A DNA stretch of 64,000 nt. It comes from Eudromia elegans. Its lineage: Eukaryota > Chordata > Aves > Tinamiformes > Tinamidae. Made by a program: the position numbers and the translations under genes. The notes beneath the pieces were generated by a model. It did not search any database. It was not told where the DNA came from and worked only from the letters and a program-made list of their open reading frames with translations. This document shows, piece after piece, positions 23,758 through 63,301 of the stretch (positions are counted from its first letter, which is position 1; every line of letters starts with the position of its first letter). The DNA is taken from positions 3,301,302 to 3,365,301 of the forward strand of contig PTEX01000032.1 of assembly GCA_003342815.1 (NCBI GenBank). The letters run 5' to 3'.

Positions 23758-26700
23758 TCAGGCAAGTCTGACCACTTCTTTGACCATTTTTCCAATACCA
23801 TCATAGACCTCATGAATGGGGGCATTGCACATGAAGGCACTGGTAGTCACCAGCTTGTTCTTCATGTCCACGTGAATCTCAGTGACGTGTTTGTTCACAT
23901 GCTTGCAGCCAAGTTCCTTCATTGTCTCAGCTGTCTTTGCATAAGGCCATCTACAAGAATAAGAGAGTAAACACTGAGGAGAAACCATCATTGTATAGAA
24001 AGATCTGACAAAGTCATGGAATGAAAGTCCCATGAGTGCCTCTTGGAAACAGCTTCAAGGCTGTTTCAAAGAAATCTGTGGCCCTACAGAAAACCAGATC
24101 AATGGGATCCTTTTTTTCCTTTCATGAGAGGATTTTCTCAAGACCTATAGAATTAATCAGGAAAACTTCCAGATTACACTGAATTTAAATTACAAATCCT
24201 ACACAAAGTCAATATAAGACCTTGTTGCAAAACTATAGTTTTTCATGGATGAGTAAGGGCAATTTAAGCTCCTCCTTCTCGTAACAATATGAAGTGTTGT
24301 GCAACCATGCAGCTGCCCAGCATCTGCTTAACTTGAAAAGACCTATTCATTCTTGTTAAGACTGGACTATTCTGGAACTGAAGAGATAGGGTCCTGCACA
24401 CATTGGGGAGGGATGTGATCATGTAGTGTTCAAGAGGTGATTTTGTATCATTTCCTTGTATTTGCAGTTACTCACTTCTCACATTCTGTGTCATGTCCCA
24501 CAGTCAGCTCACAGCCTGGGAAGATTTTGGCTGCCAGTACTGGGGAAATACAGCATAAGCCAATGGGCTTTCTGGCAGCATGGAAGGCCTTCAGTACGTC
24601 CTCCACCTCTTTGGAGATGATGCAGTTCTTCCCTTGGGTGGCCCAAGTACTCAGGTTTTTAGCCACTCCAAAGCCACCTGAAAAAATGGAAATGGATTAG
24701 ACGGGAAGATAACTGCTCAAGGGCAGAGTTTGTATGTGAGACCTGACCTAGTAGAATACTAAATGGATTTGGTATGAAATAGATTTGCATAGAAGCTTTT
24801 GTCCAATGTTGACAAAAGCACTAAAATATACATGCTACACTTCTCTGAGCTTCTGCATATTTTTCAGCTTCTCACCTGAAGTCTCCAAAGCACCTTTGAG
24901 TCTAAACAGAATTGAATTAGGGAGGTATCAACATTTGGTTAATTATCCTCTGTAATTCTCTCTAGAATTACAGTGAAGCTTGCTTACAGATTTTTCTTGT
25001 CATTTAATTCTTGTTCCAGGGGCACAGCATCAACACTTAAGTCACTCAGCCATACTCCCGCCAAAGACAAATTGTCAGAGCAACCAAATTTTCCGTCTGG
25101 GTCACCCTCTCTCTGTCCTAGCTTTTCCTTCTCCTAGTGAGGGTGTAGGCAGGTCAGAGTAGGAGGGGATGGGTTAGATATGTCTTTGCATCAAGTAGAG
25201 ACAGAGTATATGGTACAAAGAACAAGAAGTCAATCAAGTTATCTGCCCTCTCCTTCTAGGGGTGAGCTTCCATATTGCCATGTGCTGTTGTAGCACAAAT
25301 CCAAGCAAACACACTAGTCCAGCACAGATGGAAGAGGGCCATTCTTTCCAAACCCTCCCTCCCTTCCTTCCTTCCTTTCTTCCTTCCTTCCTCCAGACTA
25401 TCCTCTTCTCCAGTGGTTCCACCTGGTTCTCCAGGCCACAAAGCCCAGGGCATACCCTGAGCCCTGCCACCAAATCACAGAATAGTTGATGTTGGAAAGG
25501 ACTCTAGAGATCATCCAGGATAAAACCTTGAACTTGGAGACCCCAGCGCCATCCTACCTGGTATGATCAGGGCATCCAGTCCCTTGACATCCAGCGTAGC
25601 TAGATCCTTGATGTTGCCTCTGGCTATTCTGGCACTTTCAACTAGCACATTGCGCTTCTCCTGAGTTGGCTGCCCTTTTGTATGGTCCACGACATGCATC
25701 TGGTCTACATCAGGAGCATAAACCTCTGCCTGGAAACACAGTGTGAAATCTGTTATTCTTTGGGGACACATCCCAGGCAATGTTGCAAAGCCACAGAGCG
25801 GGTCGCAAGCGCTTGAGTTATTCCATTAGAAAAGACCTTTGATGGTGAACACAGAGACCCTCAGGCTCACCTGTACCCAACATTGGCATGGGGAAGGTTA
25901 TTGTCACTTAGAGAAAGACTGTTCTTTTGTAACTTCTGTATGGGAATCCTTGCACTGACTTTGCAGGGACAACCATACTAGGGGAAAGCCAAGAATCCCG
26001 TCCCCACTGCTTATCTGGGGGGCTGAATCTGGGGAGAGGGGAAAACACTGCTTCCCCTCCTAGAAAAACCAATCACAGTATGAGTCTGCCCTTGTAAATG
26101 GAGAGAGGAAATTGCAGAAGTTCCAAGAGAAGAGGAAAAAAGAGGCAAAAATACAGTGGTGGAAGAGAGATGAGACACATCTCACCTCTAACCCAACATG
26201 AGGCTGAGCACTCAGGAGCTTGTGGGATGGGGTCTTGGGCTCTGCAGAGCTCTTAGATCACTACTGCATGTTTGTAGTCAGTGGAGCAGTGCTGATTCCA
26301 GGAGAAAGGCTCTGACCCAGGTTTGCCGGTAGCTCAGAGCTCAGCATAACATTACACACAGCTTTCCTCCTTCCCCTTGCAGAAGGGTTATAGTGGTAAA
26401 CTGCATGTCAAGCTGCTGCTTGAGGGTTGCCTTTTTTAAACCATTTTGCAGTTTAACTCACAAGGACTCATCTAACTTCTATTTCAGCTAGCTGATTTTT
26501 TTTTTAATACATTTTAAAGAGCTAAAAACACTAGCAGTTTTTTTTAAGCAGTAATGTCAGAAAAGAGGAAGTGCCAGCCAAGGGGGGCAGAGAATGTGTT
26601 TAGGAAAGTTTGCTTCAGAGGTTGGACATGCTCAGCACGGAGCACCTTGCCAATGCTTTTGCAGAGCAAAGCAAAGAGGAAGGAGTTCTAAGGAGTTCTC

Positions 26701-26971
26701 TGTGCTCACTGCAGCAGCTTCTACACCGCACCCTTAGCTTTGACTCTGCTCACTTATGCCCAGCAGGAGTAGGGAGCTCCCGCAAAGCTCCTGAGAGCAG
26801 AGAACCTTCTGCAAGAGAAAGAATAAGAGTGATAAGTAGAGCCACGCAGAGGGACCCCCTTACCTGTGCCCCCTCCCTGCTGAGATGCACCAGCACAGCA
26901 GAAGACTCGTGGACCTCACTCCCATCGTACACTCCGCAGCCAGCCAGCACAACAGCCACTTTCTTTCCCAT
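23758..26971 (-). CDS. GATD3/ES1-like protein, class I glutamine amidotransferase-like (DJ-1 superfamily)
   Basis: Minus-strand exons 26971-26864, 25729-25558, 24677-24476 and 23950-23758 join in phase to 224 residues. The sequence follows vertebrate GATD3 (ES1, C21orf33) and bacterial ElbB from end to end: [18 protein letters not shown] at the N-terminus, [12 protein letters not shown], then [16 protein letters not shown], the nucleophile-elbow region [14 protein letters not shown] with Cys135/Cys136, and [19 protein letters not shown] near the end. GATD3 in mammals is a mitochondrial protein with a cleaved presequence. Here the ATG (strong context GACCATGG) opens directly on the first beta strand, and a TATA box lies about 75 bases upstream, so this copy probably lacks a presequence and acts in the cytosol. 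The exact reaction of the family is unsettled; glyoxalase- or deglycase-type chemistry is suggested by superfamily only. It is divergent from gene A. Confidence 0.93.
25355..25394 (+). repeat. (CTTC)n microsatellite
   Basis: Imperfect tetranucleotide run of about 40 bases in the intron between the last base of exon 2 and exon 3 of the GATD3-like gene. Simple slippage repeat. Confidence 0.9.
25472..25520 (-). mobile_element. Short CR1 3'-end fragment
   Basis: About 49 bases reading 'aaatcacagaatagttgatg' and then 'ttggaaaggactctagagat' plus 'catccagg', the extreme CR1 3' end in reverse complement. It sits less than 40 bases from the donor side of exon 2 of the GATD3-like gene. Confidence 0.7.
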
Positions 26972-27043
26972 GGTCACTGCCAGTGTGAGAGGATTCCCCA
27001 GAGCCCCAGCTCACTGCTGTGCACCTCTGTTCCCTGCCTGGAG

Positions 27044-27052
27044 CCTTTTATA
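27044..27052 (-). promoter_or_regulatory. TATA box of the GATD3-like gene
   Basis: TATAAAAGG on the minus strand, about 75 bases upstream of the ATG at 26971. Spacing fits a start site about 30 bases downstream and a 5' UTR of about 45-50 bases. This supports the short N-terminus of the predicted protein. Confidence 0.75.
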
Positions 27053-27059
27053 GCACCGT

Positions 27060-29180
27060 CCCTCCCCCAGTTCACAGGTGGGGCCAGGAGGGCTGGGCTG
27101 TCTTTCTTACTGGCAGGAAGCTTTGGTTTCCAGTGCCACAGGCAGGGCATGTAAATATTATTTGTTTCCTAAACTGAAAGCTCCCTTGCAGACCTTCTTC
27201 GCAGCACGTTGTCCCCACAGTATCCCCAGCTGACATGACCTGTTCAACAGAGCAGCTGTGTTTTTCCTTCTTCTCAGCTGTCAATTTTCCATTCTCTTCC
27301 AGACTAAAGCACCAGAACCTTTGCACATGTGACGATGTTGGAGGGAGCCAGCCCAGAGCAGAGCAAGCATTTGAGCCAGTGAATTTCCTCATCTAGTGCA
27401 AGCTGTTTCCTTCGGTTACTTTTATTATCCAGCAAAGGAGTTAAGCTCTGAGACAGCTCTGTTTGATTTGGTATCTAAGGGACTGTAAGTGTGATTTAGA
27501 AATTTATTATTTCCTCTCGTAAAAAAAAAAAGAAAAGACATCTCAATCACACTGATGTTTGAACAAATAGTTTCTCCCTCCTTCATCTTGTTAGACAGCA
27601 GATGCATTGATGGTGAGACAAAGCCAATACAAGTCTACTGATCTAAACAAAATTCTGGCTCATGGCAAACCACATCATCTAGCTCCACACGTTGCTGACT
27701 AACTAAGTAGGTTCCCCTTATTGAAATAACTGACTGGGTGTAACTGGATGTAACAGCATTGTTCCAGTCCTTGTTTCGTACTAGACTTTGTTTTCTACTG
27801 GTCCTTGTTCAAGATCTGGCTCAGTAGACGTATATAACCTAAAGATCTATCTGCAATAGACTTTTTCTGGACATTTATCTGGAAATAGATGCTGAGGTTT
27901 AATATTAACACCTTTTTCTGATCTCTATTGACACTCTTGTAAAAATGATCATGAAGGAACCCTGTTGCCTCAAAGTTCTTCTTGCAGGGTGAACACAATT
28001 TAAGACAACTGTCTTCCAAAGCACTGAAGAAACTTGGAAGGTCTGGAAGTCATTGTAGGTGTCCAGCTGCTCAGTGGGAGCAGGCTGCTGTGTTTTACCT
28101 GACTTGGGGAGCAGAAGTGTAGTCCCTTGGCATTATAATGTGGATTCTGCCAGTTGGGGATTGTCCTGACTGCTACGGCAGATCTGACACATCTGGGATG
28201 GTGACCTGACCTGCCACTTGGTCAGCCTTGGTGGCCTGGCTTTGGGCTCCAGCACTGCCCACTGTTATTACAGCTCTAAGACTCATTTTAATATGCCATG
28301 AAGCGTGCTCTACGGGAGAACATGGAGCCAGGTCTGCCAAGAGGAACATCAAAGCTTGCTGCTGTAGGGCCGCTCTGGATGCATCGTTATCCAGTCCAAC
28401 AGCATGAAGCCTTTTACACTGCTCTGTGCCTCTTATCTTGTCAAGAGGCCAAGAAAAGAATTTGCTTTAAATGGCCCTGATAGGAGTTGAGTCCTCCATA
28501 GGAGCAGGGCATCACCTGGACCACTGCTCCTGGGAATCCAACAAGACTCTTCTAGATTTTATCCTCATCCTGGCAGCGTCCAGAATTCGTGTTTCCACTG
28601 ACACCTCCCTCCTGAAGACTATGCAGGAGCAAGGAGGAGTTTCCCTGGGAACGTGCACAGAGAGGCTGGATGAGATTGAGGTGGACTGAAGTCACTTTTA
28701 AGGGGAACAGCACTGAATCTTCCCTGGGCTTTCCCAGCATGGAAGAGTGGTGCCAAGCATTCATAGCTGTGACAAGGACAAACAGCAGGGCTATAGCCAG
28801 TGTTAGGAGAAATTGCTGGTCCCCAAGGAATTCCTGGGCTTGAAAAGTGCTTGTTTGCTCCAGCAAGATGTGTTCTTTAAAAAAAACCTTAATGTTAACC
28901 AATGCAGTTTCCTCACTGGCAGTGGCAAAAAGGCAGCAATAGCAATAAACCCTTAACATTATTTTTTAAGTGTCTTTTTTAACAAGAGTTAATCAGCAGT
29001 AAAATTAAGAGGCCCCTTGAGGGAGCTACCAGCAGTCCATACTGACTCACAGACTCAAATTTATTGCAGCTACCAACTCGTTTGCATTTCCTCCCCGCTC
29101 ACAGAGGCGAACACTAACAGAAGATGTTTGTAGGGAAAAGGGGTGGAGAGCAGGGAGGAACAGAGGCCAGTGGAGTTGGT
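27060..29180. other. Intergenic region between the divergent GATD3-like gene and gene A
   Basis: About 2.1 kb separating two divergent TATA-containing promoters. No exon, repeat family or RNA gene was recognised. Two NF-kappaB-like decamers lie at 28636-28645 (GGAGTTTCCC) and 28726-28735 (GGGCTTTCCC), upstream of gene A; each departs from the consensus at one position. Confidence 0.5.
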
Positions 29181-29185
29181 TTGGT

Positions 29186-29192
29186 TATAAAG
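29186..29192 (+). promoter_or_regulatory. TATA box of gene A
   Basis: TATAAAG 62 bases upstream of the gene A start codon at 29254. The spacing fits a short leader of about 30-35 bases. A TATA box without a CpG island suggests tissue-restricted or inducible expression. Confidence 0.7.
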
Positions 29193-29253
29193 AGCTAGGG
29201 AGGAAAGAGAGGCAGCATTTCAGTCGGCACCTGGGTCTTCAGCGGACTCCGCA

Positions 29254-32200
29254 ATGGCAGTCAGAAAAGCTGACTCACTGCATTACTCCATAGGGCTCTT
29301 GGGCATTTCCGCAGGTAGGGATCAACTCTTCTTGGCATGGAAGGATGGGGCTGGGACTGGCTTGCATGGACAACCCCCTTTCAAAGGGGGCTAAAGAGTC
29401 TGTTTGTTCTGAATCTCTCTACTTGGATAAAACTTTGAGGTCCAGAGATCCCTCTGTCTATTTCGGTAGCCAATAACATATTTATCTTGGCTTTAAAGTG
29501 CTGGCCTGAGCTCTTGTACTCATTCCATCCTGAATGGGAAGCAAATCAAAACTTTGTGATAGTCATTTTTCATACAGCCCTTTTTTTGGATGCACTTTCC
29601 TCCCTTTTCCTTTTCTCTGTCTTCCCTGTGAGTCTGTTTTCCTTGTTCACTCCCCTTTCTTTTCCTCCTCCTTTGTATTTCTTCTTTTTAAGTGTTGCCC
29701 CTTTTCATTTTTGGTCTGTTTTTCTCTAAGCAAAAATCTCATGTAATCTCTGTGGAGTGTGCATGTATATATATAGCTGGAATCTGAGAGCTGATTTTGA
29801 CTTATCTGGTGGTGAAGGAACAGTTTCACAGATGATTAAGTTCACATTCTTAAAACTAGGAACCCAGGATGAGATGAGGCTGTGGACACAAGCCTGTACC
29901 ACACCACTCTTCCCCTTATTTTTCATTATTTGTACATCTCGTATGGTTACTTACTGTCTGTTCCCTTTCCCTGTTTTGGGAGGAAGGTTTACAGGTTCTT
30001 TTGCTTTTTCCCTCTTGTCACACTCAGGATCACTCTTACTGACTGTGCACTTCTACACTGTAAGCAGAGCAGCCCCTCTCATCCCCAGCACAGCTTTAGG
30101 AACCCTTCTGCTGATTTTATCATCTCTTCTGGCGTATGCAGGTAAGGTTCAGAATGTGGCCGGCTTCGAGGTCTCCCCTTCTCTAGCTTCACAAGTCTGA
30201 GGTCTGCTTTGCCAAGAGGCAAAGGCTTGGCAGCCTTACCAGACCAGATGCATTCTCCTATAGGAATCTATCAGCACACCATTTTTTTTCCAACCTATGC
30301 AATCTATGAAATAAATGTCAATTTTGAAAAAAACCACTTTACTATTAGATCACTGAGTATTTCATCAGAGTGGTTGCATAATTTATATAAAAAACTATTC
30401 CCAGGCTGAAGTGTGATTTAGTCATCCATGGATTAAAATAGCATGTTCATGTGTAAATGCCAAGGGATCTATTTAGCTGAGAGGGAAAGTCACTGATGAC
30501 ATTGAAGTTCACACTGAATGATGAAGTATTTCTCCTATTGCAGGAATGGATCAATGAGGAAATGAGTTTCCAAGTTTTGATGCTAGATTACCACTACTGG
30601 TCCTGATATTTTCTCCTGCAAAGCAGATGATTCATGAGAGATAATACACACTTTAACACCTAAAGCATAGGCCCACTTCCTTTCTCAGCTGGTGGTTACA
30701 CAAAACACCAGCAGCAGTAGTTATATTAGTGGGGCCATGTGGAATGGTCTGTTGGGCAGTTGATGTCTTCACAATGTGCAGAGCTCAACAGCCTTCTACT
30801 AGAGGATGGGTTGAAGTTTTTTAAATCAGTGTCTTTCATCTTTTTTGAGATGAGGATACTGGACAGCTCATTTCTTGAAAAGGAGTGAGTTCAGCAGTTT
30901 CTGTGCTCATTATTTATGGAAATTCAAGAAGATGTTTGAGACCCGTGGTACGTACTTGGACCTCACATTTCACATTTGGAAAGAAAAAACAAGCCACTAG
31001 GCACCCAAAAAGAAAGTAGTGTCAGAACTTGATCTCCATTAAAATATTGTCATTGTTGTTGAGTCTTGCAGGGATCACTAGGAAGAGAAGGTAACTGTTT
31101 GCTGAACCTGAACTTCATTAGGGCAGACTTCATGTCAGACTTGGTGTGATTTTAAGTTGAAGTTACTCATGAACCTTGAGTTCAGTCCACGCACTCTGCT
31201 GAACAGGCCATGTGTCGATAGCACAGATACATGTACTAAGTACAATCTTTATTAACCTGAAGTCTTAAAGTCATGGTTCTGTCTCCATTGTTATTTTTTT
31301 TCTAGGAATTCGGAGAAGCCTAAGAAATGCCTCCCTGTTCTTGTCTCTCTGCCTGACCCTCTCAGTGTTCTGGTGCAGCTACGGAGTGATCTTCATCCTA
31401 GGAGGGCAAGGAGTTTTGAATGACACTGGTGATCTCCGCAATGCCTTGGTGCCTGGCCTGGTCACATTTACTCTGGCACTACTCATTATTGCAGTGGTGG
31501 GCTTCCTTCACAGGGAGGTCGTCCTAGCTATGATTGCTTCTGCTCTCTCATTTGCCAGTGCTCATGAAATTGCCATGCACTATGACACAGCTTTTGGTTC
31601 CTCTGCTGTTGCTTGCAATTATATGATTGTCTCTTTGGTTGGAGGTTATTTTGCTCTGGGAAGGTTTCTTTATTTTCTCACCAAAGAGAAAATTATACTT
31701 CCTGGCACAGATCCATCTAAGAAAAAGACCCATGAACAGATCAAGTCCACCAGTGGCAGCATGAATCATTTTGCAACCACAGGTCTGATCCTGAACATGC
31801 TGTCTGCCAGTGTCTTCGGCTGTAGGCTCCTGGGTGTAACAAGCAAACTCTTTGTTGGTCAGGTGCCCTGGTTGTGGGCCTCTGGGGTCTATCAGATTGG
31901 AATATGCATTTTATCATACCGTTCCATGGATACACTGATGGCTACATTCTTTGGTTTTACTTCCATCTTGAAATTTGCTGGAGGCTATAGCCTTCTGTAC
32001 CCCATCTGGCAACCAGAGGAGCCATCTTTCCCTATGCCATTCCTGGTGGTTTTTGCAATTCTTTTTGCTGTCTTGGCTCTTTTTCTCACGCTTAAGAGTC
32101 TAGTGGATGGCCTGTATTTGCTGTTTTATGTGGCTTACTGTATTGCAGTTGCTTGTTGTCCCAAGGGATTTTTTGAAGGAGGACCCCAAGGCATGGATGT

Positions 32201-35200
32201 GGCCATCTTTGTGGCCTCAGCCATGATGACTCTAATTTACCAGTGCAATACAAAAGAAAATGCCATGATCCCAACAGGAAAGGGTGTTGTGAAGGCCTTA
32301 CTTTCTAACACTAGTTTTCTGAAGCTTCGAGAAGGGGCAGGCCTTCATGCTCCCTATCTAGGCTATTCCAAATATGCAGATGCTGAAGTTCTTGGCTATG
32401 CATGCAGTGTCCTTGCTTCTTTTGCTATAATGATAACAGGGGACCCAAAGGCTCCACTTGCTACTGTTGTAGTTCCATGGGTTGTGGTAGCTGGTGGGAT
32501 CCTTAAGCTTCTCGGTGGCTCAGTGGCCTTTGCCCGTGGTAAAACCCTGGAGAGCAGTGCCTTCATTTTCTATGGCATCATGTGGATCATTTGGGGCTTA
32601 ACAAGATACAGTGGCCTCTATGGCACTGCCAGAAGCTTCCACACAGCAGTGGGCATCATTGCTTTCATGCTCTTCAATAGCTTCATTGTCTTCTGCACAC
32701 TCTTCTTAAGCATCACCTGGTTCTTTTACTCCCTCACTTTCTTGCTCATCGCCATCAGCTTCTTGCTGGATGCCATTAATGCTCTTCCGACTGGCTATGA
32801 CATTGCTGCTGCTCTCATCTTTGGTCTGGTCAGCTTCTACTGCTTCCTGTCTGCCCTTTTCAGCAGCATTTTTGAAGGTTCCTGCTTACCCATGGGTAAG
32901 CCCATTGTGCAGCTCAGTGGTGTGGGGGGAGGAATGAGCAAGTGCCTTCATCTTCCTGCCAGAAAAGCTTCCTCAGTCAAGAGAATTGCAGGTAAGGGAA
33001 ATGTACAGGGGGCGTTATGTGGGTGGAGGGTCAACTAAGAGTGATTTTGGAAATCAAACATTATTAAAAGGACGTTTTTTCTTGTCCAAACATGGAAACC
33101 ATGATAATCACCCAGGGATAATCTGACCTTACATTTTGATCAAGCAAGCCAAGTTATTGGAGACATTGGGACCTAAACACACTTTGCAGAGAATAGGACC
33201 AATTCCATGGCAGAAGTTTGTTTTTTCATTAAATTTGTTGCTGAATTTCCTATATCATATCCCTGCTCATTCAGTCTAAGACACACAAGTCCTCCAGGCT
33301 GAGGCTACCACTGAAAGCCTCAAACAGAAAAAGTTAGGCAAATGCATGGTGCATCGTTCTCTCCAAAGTGCTGAAAGACTTCTGAACATGGCCCAGAATT
33401 CCCCCAAATGTCAGATCTCTCCTTGAGTGAATTGTAAAATACACTCAGAGGAAATATTTATTGTTTGGGAGAAGGAAGTGAGAGCGCTGAATTGGCTGTC
33501 TGTCACAGCTCTTCCATTAAACCCCACAGTTCTAGTCACTTAAGGGATTCTACCCCATTCCACATCAACAGATATCCTGAAGAATGGAGGGACCTGCGGC
33601 ATCCCCACAGATACTGTATATGTGCTTGTGGCAGCCTGTAATAGACCTGATGCTGTGGAGAAAGCTCACAAGTAAGTATTTCTCTGACTGTTCCAGTGTG
33701 GACTATCTTGGCTAGTATAAAGAAGCCTCTAGGACTTACAGCTGAGTGCTGACTACAGCAACTGTCCAGAAAAATGTGATACATAACATAGTTTTCCTGT
33801 GAGGAATAAGCTGACAAGCCTGGGGAGATGATCTGAATGGGAAAAAGGGACAGCTGAGCTGAGATTGTCTCCTGGAATGTTGAAGGTTATTGACAGGTGA
33901 TGGATATTGCAAGGAAACATGAAGACCAAAAAGTGAGAAAAGAGACAGGGTCTACCTGTAGGCGCATACCCAAACCCCTCTCATTTTATGTCTCTGGTTG
34001 TGCTTTTGGAGGCAGCTGGAATCCCTCATATTGGTGGGTATTTCTCACAGCTTGGGCAGTTCTGACTTTTACCCATTACTACACAGAGTCAAACACATAA
34101 CTGGGAATAGACATCCATGTCCTTTCCTGTCAGGTCATCTATGGGAAAGTTCAGCATTTGCTACAGAGACTGATCACCTGGGGCAAGGCCTACAGGTATT
34201 GTCTAACACTAGACCTCTCCAACACAGTTTCTGTTTCAGTCTGCAAATAAATTCCTAGCTTACTTCCCAAATCATTTGTCTTTCTCCATTCTAGCTCCAA
34301 GCGCCAGGCCCAAGAGCGCCCCATGTCACTTTGGATTTCTAGCCTGAAGCAGCTGGAACCTGCAAAGCATTTGTTCACCCCTCTACTCTGGGACTTTATG
34401 GAGGCTGCCTGGCCATCTCCTATTAGTTTGGTTATTCCCAGAGGTGAGGAAATGCTGTTACCTACAAGCTCTCTGGAGAGCTCTGGGTTCAAAACTCCAA
34501 TACAGTTCACACTTGATTGCAGTACCAGATACTCCATGTCAATATTCTCGGTAAATTCATTGTGGTTGGGCTTACTTGTATCAGTAAGTCTGTGACTCTT
34601 CTTTGTGCAGGAGAATGGGTTGACTTCCTGGGAATGAAGGACTCTGCAAAATACGTTGGTACTCCTCAGAGCGTCGCCATCCGTATTCCTGACTGCTCCG
34701 TCACCACACACCTCATTGACTTGGTGAGTGGTCAGAGCACATTCCTCTCAGCAGCACCCACAAACAGATCTCTCCACTCCACTGTCTAGGTGGCAGGCTT
34801 GGGGTCAGTTTCTAACGTCCAGGACCTCTGGCCTGCTGGAAGACAGAAGTATGGCGAGATTGAAGTACTCAGCTAGTCCTAGTGCTGGGTCTTGATAAGT
34901 CACCTCTCCTCTTTTTTCTTGCCTCTTTGAAATGAGGATCCTATAATGTTCAGAGAGCTCTGGGAAGTGGAAAGTGCTCAAATGAACAGCTCCCTCAAAA
35001 AAAAAAAAATCATTAGGAAGGAGTAGAGTATGCAGGCAGCTGCAGTTGATTTAATTGCTGGAGGGAGTGTAAATGGAAGAGAGATGACCAGGTCATTCAT
35101 ACACAGATTTCCTGGGATTCATCTCTTCCAACTTTACAGAATAGGTGTCTCTATCTGGGTGAGTCACACTGAGATCACTTTTCAATCATGGAGACTCATC

Positions 35201-36597
35201 AGTAGACCTCAGAGTGCAAGACGTCTGTGTGACACTGCAACACTTGCTCAGAGCTCTTCTTCCCATTTTTGTGTCACCAGGTTGGCCCCATTGTGGTCAC
35301 ATCAGCTAACCCAACAGGAGAGGCAGACACAACACATCACAACCAAGTATACGCCAAGCTAGGAGATAAGGTAATTGAGACCATCTTTCTTTTTATTCAA
35401 ACTGGTCCCAAAAGTAGCTGAGGATGGAGTAACCAAACCACTTTATTCCAAGTAGCCAAGCCGATTAATGGTAGCAAGAATCTGGGGAAAAATATAATTA
35501 AAAGAACCTCACTGGCACTCCTTACACTGATGACAGAATTAAGGAGAAAGAAGAAACTTGATGGAAAGCCAAAATGTCAATGTGTTGGACAGTATAGTTG
35601 TGGCTTGGCATCATGATTTAGTTCATCTTTCACCACAGAATGACATGAGCTACAAAAAGACGTTTCTTTGTTTAGAAGCAGTAAAACCATCATTGCCTGA
35701 GTGTGACAGACTCATTGGTGATGAATTGTCAGAACACAGAATTCCCACCCAAAGCTGGTCTAAACTGCCATCAAAGCTTTAACATGTTCCTGTCTTTCAC
35801 AGCATTTCTAAGTTCTGGAAGGACTATCAGGGAACTTGGTGTGAACATTTGCTTTTCTTCAGGTGGATGCAGTTCTTTGTGATGGGCCTTCTCCAGAGAA
35901 TATTGCATCCACTGTTGTGGACTGCACCAAAATCGACAGTGGAAACATTGGTTTCTTCAGGGTTGGTATCATCCCAAAGTCTCAGGTAAAACTAATCTTC
36001 AGCTTGCTATTGTTTTTCTTCTCTCTGCTTTTCCTGTTTCCATTATGTGGATATTGGGCAGGGGATTCCCTTTTTGCATAAGGAGCTGAATAAATCTATG
36101 ATGGCATGAGGAGGTATCATAGGGTGGTGTGAAAGAACAGAAAAATACAGCTCCGTGTTCTCTGATCGTGCCCATGGACCACCATTGTATGTCTCTTGGC
36201 TAAGCACGTACCTCATGGAGCAGCCTTTCCTTTCATACCTATCCCTGCAATCTCTGAACACACAGAAACACTTAGGGTAAGCCCAAGGAGAGACTCACAC
36301 AGGAAGCTTGAAAAAGAAAAGGGTGTATTTCCAAAGCCAGAGAAGAAATATGTTCTTTCCCCTAACCAATAAACAACGTGGAGCTCTATTTATTAATTCC
36401 AGGTGCTGCAGATACTGGAGCAGGTGCAGAAGAAATACACGTTGGTTCATAGCAATGGCCCCATCATTGCAAAAGGCCAGGAGCAGCACGTGAACCATAG
36501 CCATGCTGTTCCCAACGGGGCAGGCATGGCTGTCTCAGAAGAAACAGTACTGGGGCAGTCCAGCGATGACATTTGTGAGAGTCGCACTCGGCTCTGA
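29254..36597 (+). CDS. Gene A: triple SatP/YaaH-like permease fused to a YrdC/Sua5 domain
   Basis: Nine exons (29254-29314, 30028-30141, 31306-32991, 33572-33671, 34295-34443, 34611-34723, 35281-35370, 35863-35985, 36403-36597) join in phase to 876 residues. Residues about 12-191, 213-382 and 418-589 are three repeats of the six-helix acetate/succinate permease fold (GPR1/FUN34/YaaH). Each ends in an (I/L)P-x-G-type motif as E. coli SatP ends in VLPIG, and repeat 3 has VAGGILKLLGGSVAF like SatP GGIAQIFAGLLEY. Residues about 622-830 form a YrdC/Sua5 domain with IPTDTVY, TSAN (748-751) and VLCDGPSPENIASTVVDCT. Where bacterial TsaC/Sua5 has K-x-R-P, this protein has K656-R-Q-A, so the ATP/carboxylate site may be altered. 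The last 45 or so residues are polar. I know no vertebrate symbol for it. Carboxylate transport is inferred from family. Start choice: strong context gcaATGG behind a TATA box. Confidence 0.9.
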
Positions 36598-37776
36598 GAT
36601 GCCCTTGTGAGTTAAACAGTTACTTGCTCCGTAGGGAGGTGTTTGCTTGAAAACGATGTTCAGGTTAAATTGGGGAATGGGAGAGGTTTCCCAGCTGCAG
36701 AGGTGATGTTCACCCTTCTGTGGACTCCAGTAAAATATCCTAGGTAGGCTCCTAGCAGAGCTGACTTACCAACCAACTTCACCTGGTTTATAGTGGTACT
36801 TTTTTAACTCCTGAAAACTACCAGCTTCCACTGAAGATCAGACATAACCAAAGGAAGCTTTACATCAGTGACTAACTGACCCCAGTGTAAAAGAGCTTTA
36901 TTTTTTTTTATTTTTCAAGGAGTTAATACCTTCAATTTGGGGTAGAAAATAGCTTGACATGTTTCATAATTACATGTTGGGGGAAGAGCCCTTCATGAAA
37001 CAAGAAGTGGGAGAGGGAGAATGCAATATGTATTCAGGTGCTGTGCTGGTGAATACTATGAACTTTCTAATGTAGTTAAGACAAAACATCATCCTGGGAG
37101 CTAAGGCTGTCTTCTGATAGCAATCTTCTCAGAAAAGAATTGTTATTATGTGAGACATAATTTCTGTATTTCGTGGTCGGTGTGAGGGTAGAATTATCCT
37201 TTCAAAGACTTCGATAATATTTCTTTAGAAGTGCTGGAGTGTGATTATATTGCCTCGTGCAGAGTGTGCATGTCAGACACTTTGTGTGCCTTACATCTGA
37301 GGATGTTAGAAGCTGATCTTGCCTTCTAGCATAACTGTACACGTTTCTATGTTCGTTTCACGGGAGGTTTCCTCCAGACTGCAGATTTTGTACAGAGCAG
37401 TAGCTGCTGACCTAGAGGAGGTGAGAAGAAGTGTCAAACTGACATGAAGAGACTTCTTTAGTTAAAACTACCTGGCCCAGCTGGCTCATTTATCTTCTGA
37501 AAACTGTGGATCTTGTTCTTACCTGACACACCTGCAAGGAACTGCAATGGACAAATTCACTCATTTCACCTGATGTTTTGCTAGATTTTAAGCATAAATC
37601 CTGTGCTGTCAGAGGAGCCAAACTTCTATGAACTATGTCAAAACAATATCTTCTTGACTCTTCTTCCAGAACCAGCTCTCTTCCTGTAGAGAGATAAGAT
37701 GTTGGATAATGGAGTTGCTAATTCATTTTTCCAATCTGCTCACTGTATCTCTTTTGGGTTTTGATTTTTAGAAATC

Positions 37777-37782
37777 AATAAA
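37777..37782 (+). terminator. Candidate polyadenylation signal of gene A
   Basis: AATAAA about 1.18 kb after the stop codon, followed shortly by T-rich sequence. The interval 36598-37776 would be the 3' UTR. Confidence 0.6.
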
Positions 37783-37799
37783 ATATTTGTGATAAAAAA

Positions 37800-46088: not shown

Positions 46089-46094
46089 TTTATT
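46089..46094 (-). terminator. Candidate polyadenylation signal of gene B
   Basis: AATAAA on the minus strand about 425 bases past the gene B stop codon. A second copy lies at 46006-46011 on the same strand and could be used instead. Confidence 0.5.
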
Positions 46095-54174: not shown

Positions 54175-57100
54175 GGTCGTCTCCCTTCCAGACAAAACAG
54201 CGGTGTCAGTGGTCACCCACAACCTCACCGTCTCTCCCCTCGTGTCTCCGTCTAGACGGGTGCCGTTTTGGCACAGACCCCCCAGCCAATGTTCAAAGCC
54301 TTGCCCCTGCTCCAAGGGGGAGAAATTGGTGACAGACTCAGGTATTTCCATAGTGCCTCCCTGCTCATAGCTCTAAACAAAGGCCCAATTCAAAGCAGGA
54401 ATTTAGGTGCCTACTTTCCAGAGACTTATCCAGAGAAAACACACACAACCTATTTAGGCTACATGGATTTCTGGCAAAAACATGTTTAGGTGCCCCAAAG
54501 CGCTGCAGGTGGTGGTGATGGTTCCTGCCTCCTCTTCTCCGGCTGCTGTAGATGGAGAGGAATAAATAGTCCAACACAAATGAGCAAACATTCAGATGAA
54601 ACCCACAGGGTATTTTGAGCCATTCCAGGACACTTCTTATCCACTATTACAGACAAACAGGCAGGCATTGCACTCACATACACAGTCTCCCTTCCAGACG
54701 GAATTTTCCAACTCCATCCCTTTCTTGAAATTGTAGTGACTAAATGATCTATTTTCAAACCCTTCATATTTCTACCATTAACAAGTCTATTTGCAAGCAG
54801 CCCCCACATTTCCATTCCTCCGCACTCCTGGGTACCATGAGCTGGAGTTTGCTCTCTGGAGGTTTTTGTTAGGAAACAAAGACAAAAATAAAATGGCAGT
54901 GTTCTTGTTATTTTGTTATTTTTAGAATATTTTATGACCTAAAGGAGCTGGAAAAGGAGCCAAGTGATGTATTTTGTTCTCTGCTACCTCAAAAAAGCCT
55001 CTCAAAAATTGAGGAAAGGACGCAGAGCTACAACTGATATGGGAAGTGAAGGAGAGCAAGGGGAGAGTGTCGTTCTTCTCTCATACCTATTTTCCCTCGA
55101 ACCTGTTTCTTCTGAAGGCTAAATTTACACAGAAATCAAAGAGTAGAAGGACAATGCTAACTCCTGACAGCTCTGAACTCATTAAACAAATTAAACTTTA
55201 GAACAAGCAATAGTTTTAAACTGAGTGTACCTCTACGGATCAGCTAATTCATTCGGTTATTGCACTGTGCTAAAGTTGAGATGTTTCTGTTGAGAAAGAG
55301 CTTCACCAGCTCATGGCTCTGCAGAAAGAACACTCTCTTCAGTGTCAAGCACCTGTATGAAGTGCTGACCTGGACGGGGCCCTACCAAATGAGGCATTGA
55401 GTCCTTAGAAGTGGCTGAGCAGCTACCTGTGGAGCTTACGATGTTGACATTTTTTATAGCATCCAGATACAAATAAGCAGCTTAGCTGAAATGGTTATAC
55501 TTGGACAAAGGCCACATTATTAAGTTCCTCCAGATGTTCTGCTCCGAAATAGCTCCGACAGTGACTTTCTAGGCATGCTGCAAGGAGCACCTGCTTTGAG
55601 CCTTTCTCTGGAGAAGGATGAGACGGGTTTGCTGGTGGAAGACAGCCTGGCTAGGCGGCTGCGAGCAGAAGTGATTTTTAATTTGCCAGGATTCGCTTGG
55701 TGTGCAGCTCCTGCATAATTAGCTGTGCTAGCAGGTTTTGACCCTATGGCAGGCAGTTTGGTTTTGCCAAGGACACAGGGACATTAACAGGACTGCTTCT
55801 CTCTGACTGCAGTGAAGGCTTGGAGAGTTTTTTGTGGGGCGTTTGGGAAGGAGGGAAAACACATCGGAATGTGCCGTATGGAGGTGCAAAGGGAAAGGAA
55901 GTGAAAGGATTTAGGGCAAGGTATGGGAGAGGAGGAAGACAAAGGATCTTCCCTTGTAAGGAGTGGGCTTGGAGTTGTATGAAAGTGCTATTTCAGCATA
56001 GGGGAGGTGGAGTCCCATGCCTTCCCCCTCTACTCCATGCAATATAAAGATACTTCAGACAACAAATCCCCTCCTGACGTTCTCTCAGGGATAACAGCAG
56101 CAGTGATGACCTGGCCTGCTCCAGGATGCAGTGAAGCGAGATCCTGCATGGAGGCATCTTGAGGCACTTTCTGCTCACAGTGTGCCTAGGTCTGGTTTGT
56201 CCCCAGGACAAAATCAGCGCTGCTGTCACTCTGCAGCTAGAACAGCTGCTGCCTCTGGTGTCTAGTAAGGACTCATTTCTCTGTAGGCTCTCAGGTGTTA
56301 CCAGTACAAGACTAATATTTCTGTTCCTTATTCAATGCAATGCAGCAAAGAGGGAGCTCCCACCAAGCTTCTCCTTGGGACCAAATCCTGCAAGTTGTGT
56401 CTATAGCTGGGACTGAGGCAAAGGGGGTTTACAGGTGGAGATTAGCTCTAAAGGGAGATTAGGAAGTCCTGAGAAGCAAACAAGGACTTCCTTTGCACTG
56501 TGCAGTCACCAACCAACACAGTTACTGTCCAGCAAGCTACAGGGAAGGAGGCCTTCCTGGAGTGGCGAGGGCCCCGATGTCCGGGGACACTGCCAGGCCT
56601 TTCAACCACAGGAGAGGGCTGGTCCTTCTAGTGAGATGAGGCAGCCCACGGTGATCCTTCCTGCACACGAACCCAAGAACCCTTGCACATGTAGCCTCCA
56701 CTGTCTCCCTACCACTTAACACTTGGAGCTTCTGAACATCCCAAACCTCCTGCTACTCTGGCTCTTCTCCACCCATGGGGTCATTCTCCACCCATGCGGT
56801 CATCTCCAGCCTGGCTGGAGCATCTCAGCCCCTTCTACTCGCCCCCTTGCTCACCGCAACTTCCCTTCTCCCCTTCTACAGCAGCCCTCTCGCACATACA
56901 TTTTCCTCTTATATCTTGGCAGCTCCAGTGAATTCAATGAGAACTGTGATACAGCACTGCAGACATCACCATGTGCAGCTGCTCAACCCTAGCATCTGCT
57001 GTCTGTGTTTCTTTACCTTGTTTTATCGTGTCAACAAAGAAAATGGGAATATGCTGGTGTATGGATGTTGTCTCCATGGAGAGCTAGAGCAAAACTTAGA

Positions 57101-58130
57101 AGAGTGTTGGATTTATAAATAACTACCCCAAACCTCTCTTTTGCAGACATGTGTTCTCAGTGACATTTTGCTATTAGTTTTCCATCCCCTCTTCATGATA
57201 ACAAATGTTTACATAGCTCCCAGAAAATAATGTGTCTCATAAGATAAATATGTAAAAGAATGAAATGAAATCCCCTTTGGATAAGTACACTGCAGGATTA
57301 ACGGTACCTCACAGCCCTGCATGGCAGGAATACATATCACAACTCCTGATCTCATCTGGTGAAAATCAGCACGAAGGTTTCTAAGAGGCATTGCTACATT
57401 CACAGTGATCAAAGGTCTGGCTAATATTTTGTAGAAAATCCAAGCTGTTTCTATATAGCTGGCTGCCAAATGCACCACTTTGATATTTTGTACACAATAA
57501 TATGCATAATATTAAAAGACCACACAAGCATTTCCACAAAGTCCAGGCATTCACCTAAGAATGAATGAAGGGTCCCAATGTCTCCCGGCACCTACAACAT
57601 AGATCTCACGTCCATATTAACATTTCAGTGAACCTGTAACACATGGAAGGCAACGTTGCAGCACTCACAATGTAGAAATAGGAGACTTAGGAAAAGATTC
57701 AGCCAAATGCTAGAATACCATAGAAGCATCAAAGAAAAAAATACCACCCTCCTATCTCTGCAGCTTGGATTACCTGTTTTGGTGACACTTCAGCTCAATG
57801 GGAGGATGCTCTTGTCCCTCTCATTTCCTGGTAAGTACCATTTTTATAGTCCTCCTCTGTAGGAGGAGCCTAGGGCCGGTTGCTTCACTCATTGGCACCT
57901 GTGGCATTTTGGAAACAAGAAGTTCCTTGAACTTTGTCAGTTATTGTCCCAAAGCTTTTTCTATTTCCTGAAACCAAAGGGGTTTCCCTTCAATTCAGCC
58001 CAGAAAAAAATGCCCCTCCTCATCTCTTCCCCCCTCCTCTCCATCCCCAGAGGCTGATGTCATCACACTTGAAATTCAGTTGAGAAAAAAAAAAAGAGGA
58101 AAACCAAAACAAAAAGCAAATTGCCTTTCA
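54175..58130. other. Intergenic region between divergent gene B and the ACOD1-like gene
   Basis: About 4 kb between two divergently transcribed starts. No exon, RNA gene or repeat family was recognised. GGAATTTTCC, an NF-kappaB-like decamer, lies at 54700-54709 upstream of B. An NF-kappaB consensus match lies at 57979-57988 upstream of the ACOD1-like gene. A short tandem duplication of about 19 bases (unit containing ctccacccatg) sits near 56767-56806. I see no TATA box for gene B. Confidence 0.5.
57979..57988 (+). promoter_or_regulatory. NF-kappaB consensus motif upstream of the ACOD1-like gene
   Basis: GGGGTTTCCC matches the full GGGRNNYYCC consensus and lies about 150 bases upstream of the TATA box. 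ACOD1 in mammals is strongly induced by Toll-like receptor and NF-kappaB signalling in macrophages. A similar control here is plausible but rests on one motif. Confidence 0.5.
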
Positions 58131-58136
58131 GAAGCA

Positions 58137-58145
58137 TATATAAAG
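58137..58145 (+). promoter_or_regulatory. TATA box of the ACOD1-like gene
   Basis: TATATAAAG about 100 bases upstream of the start codon at 58241, giving an expected start site near 58170 and a leader of about 70 bases. No CpG island is present, as expected for an inducible gene. Confidence 0.8.
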
Positions 58146-58240
58146 CCTGACACCAAAGCACCTTGCAGACACACACACCTCTCATTGCTCGAATAGAGCA
58201 GTTCAGAGCTGGAGATCAAGCAGTGTTAGCAGCTACCAGA

Positions 58241-60298
58241 ATGGTCTACTTAACTCTGCAGGTAAATACTACTTGATGTACAAAATCTCTCCATCTCTGA
58301 TCTTTCCCTTTTGGCTTTCAAGAGCTACTCTTGCTATTGGAATAGTTCCTCAAGTGGTCAAAACTGTCATGACATTAAGTGAGAATCTGCCCCATATTAA
58401 TAAAACCAGCTGGTTTTATAGGCATTTTCGGGGTTACTAACCTGTTCCTTCTCTGTGCTTACTCCTTATATGCATCTCAAATGTCTTGTACAATGCCACG
58501 GGGAGGTTTTGTTGGTCTTTGGGAAGTGCTGCATGTTTCTTACTCTTCATATCCCCTCTGAGCTGGTCCCTCTTCACAGCTCTGAGGACTGCGTGGTAGA
58601 GCTTGAGAGCCGGTGCTGCCCCTTCCACGATGCTGCTTTCTCCTATGGCTGTTCTTGGCACCTCGGCTGGACTGGGCATTGGAAAACATTTTTTCATCTT
58701 AAGCGTGTAGGCTCTCAAATGTAGTTTTATCCACTTATTTGGTCTCTGAATGTCTTTACTGTGCCGTGCCAGAGGCACAAGTGGTAAAACATCTCTGAGA
58801 GCGCTCCGGCAGCTCAGGTGACAAGTGATCTTTCTCTGTCTTTACCCTAGAAATCCCAGAAGATCTTGGCAAGCTCCCGACGGGTACATAAAACTGCCGC
58901 TCACGGTTCGTATCTCTTAGCAGAGCAACATTCTCTCTTCTATTTTAAATTACTTCTCAAAATAATTGTGTCATTACCTATAAAAAAAAATGGATCTGGG
59001 TTAAGCATTCTGGAAAAAAAAGAAGTTCTTGGGAGAGAAAGCATGCTTGAGGGTCTTCTTATGTTAATTATTGTCCTGGGTTGAAAAGAACAAGGGAAAA
59101 TGCAACAAGGGTAAAAATGTTGCTACTGGTCCTGTGCTAAAATAGGATATTTACTTGATTGTTTTTACTGGTTTTGAACCAGATTTTCCAAACTCTCACA
59201 TTGTGATCATAGCCTTAAAATATTCCAATTGCTGCCACTGGGTTGCTCAGGTGGGATTTTTCATTCCTCTATTTCTCTTTGCTTATTTATTGCAGTTCCC
59301 TTGTTGCTAACATTTCTTAGAGTGATTCATCAAGGAGTCTTCCTGTAATATCTCACCGACAGTTCACTGTCCTCTGCAGTACTGCACATATGCAGTTGTT
59401 CCGGCAAATCAGTTTTAGCAGACTTGTGACATGTAGCCATTTGATGTCTCACAAATTTGTATATTATTTTGTGTGCAGATTAAACAAATCTAATGAAATT
59501 CACAGAACTTAATGAGCAGCTGAGAGCAATGGAAATAGTAATAATCCATGCAAGTCTATTAGCTCTTGCAGAAACTTTTTGTATAAGGTCATTTTTATTT
59601 AGTTATTTAGTTCTATTGCCCAGCTGCCCTACCGGGATGAAAACACTGGTGTGTAAAGTATCCTTAATGGAACAGTTAAAACTGTCAGTGTTTACTAGAG
59701 TGACAAAGAGTGTCTCATGATGGGAAGGAAGAAGTCAGAATTGCATGGGCGCAGCATGATTCAGAATGATTTTCTTTCCATCCCTCCAATCTAGTTTGAC
59801 TTCACTGTTTCCCTCCTGCTGAGGGCGTTGGTGCTTTTGCTTCTGGTATTCAGAAGATACTTTCAGCACACACAGGGTGCACCTCGATTTTGTGTGCAGA
59901 TTTCCAAACTGCTGAGTGCTACAGATTCCTATAGCAATATATTTCACAGGGCTGCTGCAAAGTGTGAACTTTGCTTCAGTGAGTCACAGCCGTGATGAGA
60001 TTCTCAGCTGTGTTTACAAGTGGTTTTTGGGCTCCTAGACATTAGGTGAGACCAAATACAATTCCAAGCAAACTGTGAGTCAGGAGCCATGACATTTGAA
60101 AATGAAAACTTCCTAGTGAAGTTAGGGGTGGTCATTTTTTAATTGGAACATTTTCTGATACAAAAAATAGTCTCAGGTGTAGTTTCTGATGAGGTTTCCC
60201 ATAAGATGTGGAAATAAAATATTCATCCTTTCTTCCTTGATTCATATTAACTTCTGCCTAGGATTAATTTAATTTGGATATACATGCTGGGCCTTGTT

Positions 60299-60340
<42 letters not shown>

Positions 60341-63301
60341 GAAAGATTTGCAACCGTGCACATATTAACTACTTTGAATCTTGCAGTTTCTATAATCTTA
60401 CCATGTGCCTTTTCAAAACGCTGTTTATCGTTCACCAAAACAAAGCAATTTGTCATTGAAATAAAATAATTCAGCAGTCCTAAGCTACATATTTTCCACA
60501 GCATTATAATACCTCCAACATTTTGGAAGCGGTAACTCCCATACACAGAAATGCAAGTGTTTTGTGCTCTCTGTCCAACTCTACATGACATGACATGAAT
60601 AGAGACACTGACTTTACCTTGGGAAGATGGATGTTGCATCTTGTCTAAGAGGAAAGGTGGTCTCAGTGGCAGGAAATCACCTTTCTTCAAACACTGAGTG
60701 TAGGTAATCAACTTTAATCTGTTTCTGAAGCACAGGGTAGATCTTCTGATATGCTGAACTGAACTTGGCATGTCCAAGGAGAGGCTCACAGCATGGAAAG
60801 CACAGGGAAGCTCCCATACCGCCCAAATGCTTAGGGCTATTCCCAGCCTTGTGACCCAAGGGAAGTGCTGGCCGTGTCCTGTGCTCTGGGACCAAGGATG
60901 AAGACTTGAGAGCTGTTAGCACATGGGCCATGTGAGTCTTACCTCTTTCCTCTTCCTTGGTGTGCAGTGGTGGCCAGGAGCGCTCCGGAGGAGACGGTGA
61001 CCAGCAGCTTTGCCTCCTTCATCCATGGAGTTCAACCAAAACACTTGTCAAAGGCCATCTGTCACCGAAGCAAGAGGATGATCCTCGACAGCATTGGCGT
61101 TGGCCTTGTGGGCAGCAGGACGCACGTGTTCAATATTGCTCTGCAGTACTGCCGGGTAGGTGCAACCACCATAGAGCCATGGATGTACGTGGTCCCCATT
61201 CTGACACCGTCATCATAAGCGGAGCTTTGCTTGGTGGCCGAAGGAGGACTTGTGCCTTGAAACAGGGGGCTTTTTGGCTCTGCACAATGCTTCTCAAGGT
61301 CCTCATGTGGATTTCCCTCTCTTCCACAGGAACTATACTCCTCAGCAGCCGTGAGCTCTGTCTATGGAAAGCCAGGCATAAAGCTCTCCCCAACCCTTGC
61401 TGCATTTACCAATGGAGTTGCGGTAAGGCAGGCTGGTCTAAAAGGAGCTCTGGGATCCTTTCAAGGCACTGCTTGATGTTACGGGCAGCAGTCAAGGCCT
61501 TGGGAGGATGCTGGGCCTCAAAATTCACGTGCTGCTCTGCAAGCTCACATGCTGCTTTTAGGGCAATAATATGGGTGCCACTGGATGACTGGTGGATTTT
61601 ATTCCTGACCTTACACTAGCATATCCTTTTTTCCATTTCCATGGTAGACTCACTCCATGGATTTTGATGACACCTGGCACCCTGCTACTCACCCGTCAGG
61701 AGCTGTTCTGCCTGCCCTTCTCGCAGCTTCCCAGATGCTGCCTCCAAGCACCAAACCCAATGGCCTGGATTTCTTGCTGGCTTTTAATGTGGGTGTAGAA
61801 GTGCAAGGAAGGCTCATGCACTTCTCCAGTGAGGCTCACAACATTCCCAAAAGGTAAATCTCCCTTTCTTCACATGGGTCTAGTGAGCAGGGCTAGAGTG
61901 TGATGCAGCAATTTCCATAAGAAAAACAAGCACAGTTTAACTGTGGGGTTTTCCTGGGACAACTCCAAGCTGTGCCAGCTGCACTCACCAGGCAGAGTTC
62001 TGGCACAATATAAGAGACAACACAGACCACAAACTATTATCCTTAGATGAGGCCTTCTTTTCTGCATGGGAGAGTGAAAGCTTAGCTGTATGGACACGAA
62101 CTGTACCATGCCATCTACGCTCAGGAAGAAATAATAATTTTGTTCTAGAGATGCTGTTCTCACTCTGTCATCTCAGAAGTTTCAAGTAGATGCTTAGTTT
62201 TTAGGTGATTAAATACTGAGTCAGATGAATCCTATCTGCAATGGACCCATGGTGGTTTCTCACTGATGTGGCAGTTCCTTTCCTGCCCGATGGGCGTGTT
62301 TGTTAGATGAGGTGCTGTGGTAGTCCCTGTGCGTGTTCTGCGAGCCACGTCGGGGTGCTCATACTGACAATTTCCTCTTTAGGTTCCATCCTCCTTCTGT
62401 AGTTGGTACCATGGGCAGTGCAGCTGCCACCGCAAAGTTGCTCTCTCTCAGCATAGCCCAGTGCACACACGCCTTGGGCATAGCTGCTTCGTTTGCAGGG
62501 GCCCCGATGGCAAACGCTGCCACCCAAGCCAAGCCACTGCATATGGGAAACGCAACTCGCCTGGGCTTCGAAGCAGCACTGCTGGCAGCCCGAGGGATGG
62601 AGGCCAACCCTTTCATTCTGGATGATATCCCTGGATGCTCTGGATTTAGTGCTTTCTACAGCGCCTATGAACCCAAACCGCTTGCTGTACCAAGTGACCA
62701 TCATGAATTCCTCTTGGAGAAGCAGGACATTGCTTTCAAGCGATTCCCTGCCCATCTGGGGATGCACTGGGTGGTTGATGCTGCCTTGTCTGTCCGGAAC
62801 CTGTTCCTCAACTATGCAGGCTCTTTCTCTCCCTCTTTGATCCGTACCATTGTGCTGAAGGTCCCAGTATCAAAGTACATCAATAGGCCTTATCCAAGCT
62901 CTGAACATGAGGCCAGACACTCCTTCCAGTTCAACGCGTGTACGGCCTTGCTGGACGGTGAAGTGGGCCTTAGCTCCTTCACGGAAAACAGCATCCACCG
63001 TCAGGAATTGAGGGAGCTGCTGGACAAAGTGGTGGTAGAGCATCCTGAAGATAACGCGGCCAACTTTGACAAGATGTATGGAGAGGTAGCACTGCTCCTG
63101 CACAGCGGGGATGTCCTGACAGGCAAATGTGACACTTTCTATGGTCACTGGAGGAATCCTCTGAGCAGAGAATCACTCCTGAAGAAATTTCGATCCAATG
63201 CCTCCTATGTGCTCTCGGATGAAAAGATCGAAGCCATCATTGCTACAGTGGACAACCTGGAGAATGTGTCAGATTGTTCCCAGCTGGCCTGTGCCTTCTG
63301 A
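58241..63301 (+). CDS. ACOD1/IRG1-like cis-aconitate decarboxylase
   Basis: Exons 58241-58261, 58851-58905, 60968-61155, 61330-61422, 61648-61853 and 62383-63301 join in phase to 493 residues (human ACOD1 is 481). It belongs to the MmgE/PrpD fold; ACOD1 decarboxylates cis-aconitate to the antimicrobial and immunoregulatory metabolite itaconate in mitochondria. Catalytic-site residues reported for ACOD1 are all present: MDFDDTWHPATH (Asp124, Thr128, His134), RFHPPSVVGT (His190), AKPLHMGNA (Lys238) and RFPAHLGMHW (His312). About 40 extra N-terminal residues are rich in Lys/Arg/Ser with no acidic residue before about position 33, and look like a mitochondrial presequence. Exon 2 must end at an unusual donor, G then GTTCGT, to keep phase with exon 3. 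Bona fide ACOD1 sits near CLN5 in other vertebrates, so this is probably the separate ACOD1-like paralog (compare irg1l of fish), which I infer from location. Confidence 0.94.
60305..60335 (+). repeat. (TG)n microsatellite
   Basis: About 15 pure TG units in the second intron of the ACOD1-like gene, likely polymorphic. Confidence 0.95.

Follow-up and report, generated by a model that had tools for sequence, protein, structure and literature searches.

Why should a GATD3-like gene, two genes for permease-YrdC fusion proteins and an ACOD1-like gene stand side by side in the genome of the bird Eudromia elegans? The four genes, here called GATD3L, A, B and ACOD1L, lie within a 64,000-nucleotide stretch of DNA (contig C236:3301302-3365301; hereafter, the window), and we compared them with the genome to which they belong, which was searched as 944 Mb in 723 contigs. 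C-numbers denote contigs of this genome, and locus counts are lower bounds, as the searches score the best candidates only. A first-pass annotation had read the four genes as one carboxylate-metabolism block for which chance association was less attractive. What we claim most strongly is that a GATD3-like gene and ACOD1 are evolutionarily linked in two paralogous blocks. The locus as a whole is best explained, and we consider this probable, as one of the copies left by an early vertebrate duplication of a gene block that has an old core of GATD3L-ACOD1-KCTD12.

The evidence for this linkage comes from the second ACOD1 gene. A profile search of the genome with PF19305 finds two loci, namely ACOD1L and a gene on C92, whose products are 57.3% identical. 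The C92 gene is the canonical ACOD1 locus. It matches the cis-aconitate decarboxylase 7br9, which we take to be the mouse enzyme, with 434.7 bits, against 340.7 bits for the last exon of ACOD1L (E 8e-101), for which 7br9 is the best match in the PDB. The neighbours of C92 ACOD1 include CLN5 (Pfam, 261.2 bits), a KCTD8/12/16 H1-domain gene (181 bits) and an F-box gene, which we take by eye to be FBXL3. Furthermore, a second GATD3-like gene, GATD3L2 (C92:740288-744487), lies next to ACOD1 (C92:750232-746010), with 1.5 kb between it and the end of that gene, and the order on this contig is CLN5-GATD3L2-ACOD1-KCTD12. A KCTD12 query finds four loci, including C92:778978 and C236:3416893-3417249; the latter paralogue is 82% identical and lies 51.6 kb to the right of the window, and the order on C236 is GATD3L-A-B-ACOD1L-KCTD12 paralogue. 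The three linked families, GATD3L, ACOD1 and KCTD12, are in the same order on both contigs, with different orientations.

Because canonical ACOD1 also has a GATD3-like neighbour, the pairing is old and not accidental, and because a KCTD12-family gene recurs with it, the three families are read as a duplicated block. Independent random placement would produce both GATD3-ACOD1 pairs with a chance of ~3e-8. It should be noted that both copies descend from one pair, so that the relevant chance is that of a single ancestral linkage, ~4e-4 for any such pair. What the recurrence demonstrates is that a linked block has descended from a common ancestor; it does not demonstrate a shared pathway. The earlier view that chance association is less attractive is supported, as a matter of descent, for GATD3L with ACOD1, given the pair at C92 and the KCTD12-family parallel.

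A GATD3L query of the genome finds three loci, in the window, on C92 (GATD3L2) and on C380, the last of which we take to be the canonical GATD3. GATD3L and GATD3L2 have all three intron positions in common, and the match to the C380 gene is split into six pieces with other break points. In a midpoint-rooted tree with 23 bacterial ElbB proteins from 26 loci (L066 and L067 were left out as partial matches and L068 as a match that is broken up), GATD3L and GATD3L2 are sisters with support of 97/91, and the C380 GATD3 falls outside.

The identity of 57.3%, together with 38% at third codon positions, makes the split between ACOD1 and ACOD1L an old one. At codon positions 1, 2 and 3, the identities are 67/75/38% for ACOD1L and ACOD1, 73/84/46% for GATD3L and GATD3L2, 62/68/36% for the YrdC parts of A and B, and 37/52/30% for their permease parts; in each of these paralogue pairs, the third position has changed the most, which is the mark of constraint at the protein level. 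The four KCTD12-family loci look like the quartet left by a double genome duplication, and 4q, 5q, 13q and Xq form one fourfold (ParaHox) paralogon (PMC2211742). The duplication of the block likely dates to the early vertebrate genome duplications.

The four genes of the block are real, open and arranged as had been proposed, i.e. as two divergent pairs with A and B facing each other. The genes were rebuilt exon by exon, and splice models and domain scores bear out the four families. The interval 23758-63301 given for the block is exact, spanning from the stop codon of GATD3L to the stop codon of ACOD1L. All 44 splice sites in the four models are canonical (23/23 acceptors AG, 21/21 donors GT), with no internal stops. 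The features are as follows:

23758..26971, minus strand: GATD3L, ES1/ElbB-family gene, complete, 224 amino acids in four exons (26971-26864, 25729-25558, 24677-24476, 23950-23758)
31306..32991, plus strand: gene A, large permease exon (AceTr/SatP-like), with AG/GT ends; its open frame matches PF01184 with E 9e-05 and 22.6 bits, below the cut-off of 25
33572..36597, plus strand: gene A, YrdC exons (33572-33671, 34295-34443, 34611-34723, 35281-35370, 35863-35985, 36403-36597), from PF01300 and the alignment with Pyrococcus Sua5 (Pa-Sua5)
54174-54018 and 53571-52117, minus strand: gene B, exon 1, which carries the start codon and EPSVLGL, and the large permease exon, from the splice model; the full-length protein scores 29.7 bits with PF01184
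51470-51378, 50816-50712 and 50083-49974, minus strand: gene B, three more permease exons, from the splice model
49378-49184, 48016-47854, 47671-47506, 47331-47237 and 46602-46517, minus strand: gene B, YrdC exons, from PF01300, TIGR00057 and matches to Sua5 proteins in the PDB
60968-61155, 61330-61422, 61648-61853 and 62383-63301, plus strand: ACOD1L, MmgE/PrpD-family cis-aconitate-decarboxylase-like gene, from the 7br9 match, Pfam and the identity to C92 ACOD1

Gene B is complete, with 10 exons and 874 amino acids. The model of gene A comprises the seven exons found (817 amino acids), without the N-terminal exon or exons, and the YrdC domain starts at the 3′ end of its large permease exon; a tblastn search of 26972-31320 with residues 1-78 of B gives no match. 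ACOD1L is modelled in four exons (467 amino acids); its start-codon exon was not identified, and no search was aimed at it. Measured to the first exons found, the spacing of the divergent pairs is 4.3 kb from GATD3L to A and 6.8 kb from B to ACOD1L. Gaps of this size give no support to short shared promoters; the true first exons of A and ACOD1L may lie nearer.

The single ACOD1 of mammals has been the main subject of work on itaconate, an acid of key importance in killing bacteria and in regulating immunity. ACOD1L matches both Pfam domains of the family (MmgE_PrpD_N, 222.3 bits; MmgE_PrpD_C, 131.4 bits). The residues Asp93, His103, His159, Lys207, Lys272, His277 and Tyr318 belong to the active site of ACOD1 or are closely connected with it (PMC12259180, PMC11814083), and all seven (D93, H103, H159, K207, K272, H277 and Y318) are identical in ACOD1L. 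These numbers were counted along C92 ACOD1 from H159, and the tyrosine, which falls at 319, was taken as human Tyr318; K272, H277 and the tyrosine are also seen in the alignment with 7br9. Judged by its sequence, ACOD1L is likely a working cis-aconitate decarboxylase. It resembles ACOD1/IRG1 (PDB 6r6t, 6r6u and 7br9) in its MmgE/PrpD fold and these seven residues, with intron positions that are the same as in the C92 ACOD1 model, and differs in being a second, separate gene beside the ACOD1 of the same genome. As modelled, the first exon of C92 ACOD1 has a GC donor instead of GT, at C92:750071.

GATD3L scores 278.8 bits against the NCBIfam ElbB equivalog NF008747 (cut-off 180) and matches the ElbB structures 1oy1 and 1vhq in the PDB with E 1e-58. 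Like GATD3A/ES1 and E. coli ElbB (1oy1, 1vhq), it passes the ElbB equivalog and keeps the Cys motif. Unlike GATD3A/ES1, it shows no mitochondrial lead in the model, which begins MGKKVAVV without a sequence resembling a transit peptide (an upstream exon beyond the model is possible), and it is a gene separate from the C380 GATD3.

A and B fit the two vertebrate Ato-YrdC fusion genes. The permease-YrdC fusion of vertebrates is already known: Ghasemi et al. (iScience, June 2026, PMC13316224) describe proteins of ~900 amino acids, in which an AceTr-like membrane part leads into a Sua5/YrdC domain at the C-terminus, that form two clades and are present in every major vertebrate lineage except mammals. 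Their AlphaFold models contain three six-helix repeats, and two protomers are proposed to make up a six-domain ring (PMC13316224). Within this family, B combines AceTr and YrdC matches in one protein of about 900 amino acids, both over the cut-off (PF01184 29.7 bits for the full length, cut-off 25). A matches PF01300 as well, and for PF01184 it is under with the 817 amino acids of the model (21.8 bits) and over in a six-frame search of the genome. The only matches in the latter search (2/2) are A, above the cut-off at 25.9 bits, and B, below it at 22.9 bits. Compared with the published account, the two genes are neighbours here, and one has an intact and the other an altered KxR motif.

In the membrane part, PF01184 matches as one stretch of the hidden Markov model per protein, and the hydropathy peaks before the YrdC domain number 14 in A, whose N-terminus is missing, and 13 in B. 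An AlphaFold2 model of the A permease exon, made from a two-row alignment of A and B, has a mean predicted local distance difference test score (pLDDT) of 37.2 and was not used, and the A permease gives no match to PDB sequences at E 1.

For the YrdC domains, PF01300 scores 119.8 bits in B and 113.2 bits in A. Of its eight matches in the genome, five fall within A and B and two within a separate, normal YRDC-like gene at C554; the eighth, at C642, is weak. The C642 match (E 0.0125) was rejected as chance; its plus-strand frames hold no recognisable YrdC motif. For the TIGR00057 equivalog of threonylcarbamoyl-AMP (TC-AMP) synthase (cut-off 123.2), both B (121.5) and A (103.4) fall under. In Pa-Sua5, TC-AMP synthesis requires K56, R58, S143 and N145, which are associated with ATP, and T33, S181 and R195, which are associated with threonine (PMC10321239). 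B keeps all seven, along with KDRP and TSANPSG; A keeps six, having Q at R58 and thus K-x-Q for K-x-R. Both proteins have T before SxN, a mark of TsaC rather than Sua5 (PMC10321239), and the Sua5-specific H67 is replaced by F in B and by W in A. B resembles the TsaC/Sua5 TC-AMP synthases (6f87, 9d3h, 3aje) in its KxR/SxN motifs and in the equivalents of T33, S181 and R195. A and B differ from these enzymes in being fused to a membrane part and in having no SUA5-domain length past the YrdC domain, and A differs in the Q at R58. The YrdC domain of B is likely a working adenylating enzyme of the TsaC type, using ATP and bicarbonate, and A its altered partner. The YrdC half is the better conserved half of the two proteins, with 48.4% identity between A and B against 22.5% for the permease parts; most intron positions differ. 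Past the YrdC domain, A has a polar tail of ~60 residues (exon 36403-36597) that is not present in B.

Several observations weigh against the reading of the window as one copy of an old duplicated block, and against the mechanism proposed for it. Raw identities among the three GATD3-family proteins are nearly equal (GATD3L-GATD3L2 64.3%, GATD3L-GATD3 66.2%, GATD3L2-GATD3 63.1%). The GATD3-ACOD1 pair is convergent at C92 and divergent in the window, and no relative of A or B is found in the 100 kb around C92 ACOD1, of which 1,698 bases are N. The placement of C92 and C236 on 13q and Xq presumes the human sites of ACOD1 (13q22) and NSDHL-CETN2 (Xq28). None of the 26 bacterial elbB loci has an ACOD1L match beside it (E 0.01, in the flanks retrieved; two loci, L057 and L066, span less than 4 kb); a YrdC match is present at one of them (L049), ~4.7 kb away. 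This negative and the lack of A and B near C92 ACOD1 also tell against a single pathway. As for the permease, the PF01184 scores lie near the cut-off, on either side of it. The NPAPLGL motif at the start of the first transmembrane segment is critical for uptake (PMC13316224), and neither B nor the 817 amino acids of A contain a strict NPxPxG, the first-repeat start of A lying outside the model. The nearest equivalents of NPAPLGL, EPSVLGL and EPMALGN, are both in B, with none in the modelled part of A. A and B are thus like the SatP/Ato acetate-succinate transporters in matching PF01184 near the cut-off, and unlike them in having no strict NPAPLGL where this can be tested. The proposal of a SatP/YaaH acetate/succinate permease keeps the score of full-length B in its favour and is weakened by the marginal membership and the unmatched motif; transport of acetate, succinate or itaconate by A and B is a hypothesis.

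What might the four proteins do? ACOD1L would decarboxylate cis-aconitate to itaconate and CO2, and GATD3L would act as a glyoxalase or deglycase of the ElbB/GATD3 type, probably outside mitochondria. A and B may form a SatP-like anion conduit in the membrane, in which the cytosolic YrdC domain of B would form a product of the carbamoyl-AMP type from ATP, bicarbonate and either an amino acid or a carboxylic acid, with A as a catalytically altered partner. The least certain step is that all four genes serve one carboxylate pathway, which we regard as doubtful. More speculatively, an A-B complex could carry an acid tied to itaconate metabolism while GATD3L guards against reactive by-products, a role suggested by the deglycase function that has been published for GATD3A (PMC8935817). 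A bolder version, which we judge very unlikely, makes A and B obligate partners, one of each forming a six-domain SatP-like ring with a working YrdC domain in B and a silenced, regulatory one in A. With ACOD1L and a cytosolic GATD3L, this ring would constitute a carboxylate-defence module that stems from a neighbourhood older than the vertebrate genome duplications, couples itaconate/CO2 chemistry to the ATP-dependent activation of an acid that is transported, and has largely been lost in mammals.

These proposals compete with simpler ones. The GATD3L-ACOD1-KCTD12 neighbourhood may be old and its genes, as well as A and B, merely never separated, with no functional link between them, and we give this an even chance. 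It would account for the KCTD12 family, which is not known to have a metabolic role, travelling with the block, and it is in line with the missing A/B at the C92 copy, the empty count of ACOD1L matches at the bacterial elbB loci and the unconserved orientations. It explains less readily why two enzyme genes have remained near each other for so long in each of the copies (the paralogues are 57% and 64% identical), at a distance of 1.5 kb in one of them. A single itaconate module, in which ACOD1L makes itaconate, A and B export or sense it and GATD3L repairs damage, draws on the complete active site of ACOD1L, on the AceTr score of full-length B and on the position within the block of A and B, beyond which the genome search turned up no AceTr gene. 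We consider it unlikely in view of the NPAPLGL signature, the lack of an A/B relative within 100 kb of canonical ACOD1, and the known substrates of YrdC domains, which are threonine, bicarbonate and ATP or carbamoyl phosphate (PMC9654439), and not itaconate.

A and B could instead be transporters coupled to a second enzyme of the threonylcarbamoyladenosine (t6A) type, supplying threonine or bicarbonate for the production of TC-AMP and unrelated to itaconate. The seven TC-AMP residues of B, its T before SxN as in TsaC (PMC10321239) and its TIGR00057 score just under the cut-off speak for such a role. The normal YRDC-like gene at C554, by which the need for a t6A-type enzyme would be met elsewhere, and the loss of R58 in A speak against it, and we find it rather improbable. 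That the genes are pseudogenes or an assembly artefact might be suspected from the N-terminal exon of A that was not found and from its one missing catalytic residue. We reject this reading as barely conceivable, given the canonical splice sites, the open frames and the divergence pattern across codon positions; relatives of the fusion throughout vertebrates have also been published (PMC13316224). The early duplication of a GATD3L-ACOD1-KCTD12 block is a claim about descent, and with it the first-pass interpretation is partly supported and partly replaced.

Other features were seen in and around the two loci. To the left of the block, the window contains two tandem centrin-like genes on the plus strand (15807-16124 and 19631-22031), each with EF-hand domains in its first exon, and beside them an NSDHL-like gene with a 3Beta_HSD domain (6539-8869, minus strand); the names NSDHL and centrin were given by eye only and are our assumption. 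Between ACOD1L and the KCTD12 paralogue lies an exon with a Sec3 exocyst coiled-coil domain (window coordinate 83552-83896, minus strand; L040:9552-9896). On C92, between CLN5 and GATD3L2, there is a retroviral envelope-like open frame (C92:734903-736294, minus strand; L027:4903-6294; Pfam TLV_coat, 24.9 bits).

A term search of PMC13316224 finds no synteny, neighbour, aconitate or itaconate wording. In the open-licence literature, a scope that mostly excludes subscription journals, we found no report of a GATD3-ACOD1 linkage; PMC8727884 names GATD3 and ACOD1 in separate gene lists. What is new is that a GATD3-like gene adjoins both ACOD1 genes, with a KCTD12-family gene on the far side of each. 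Our results suggest that at least one non-mammalian vertebrate has a second ACOD1 gene, apparently competent by its sequence, and that both copies stand beside a gene of the GATD3/ElbB type. If the linkage holds in other vertebrates, the two Ato-YrdC proteins would gain a genomic context, and GATD3-like proteins would become candidate partners of itaconate synthesis, so far unrecognised and open to direct test.

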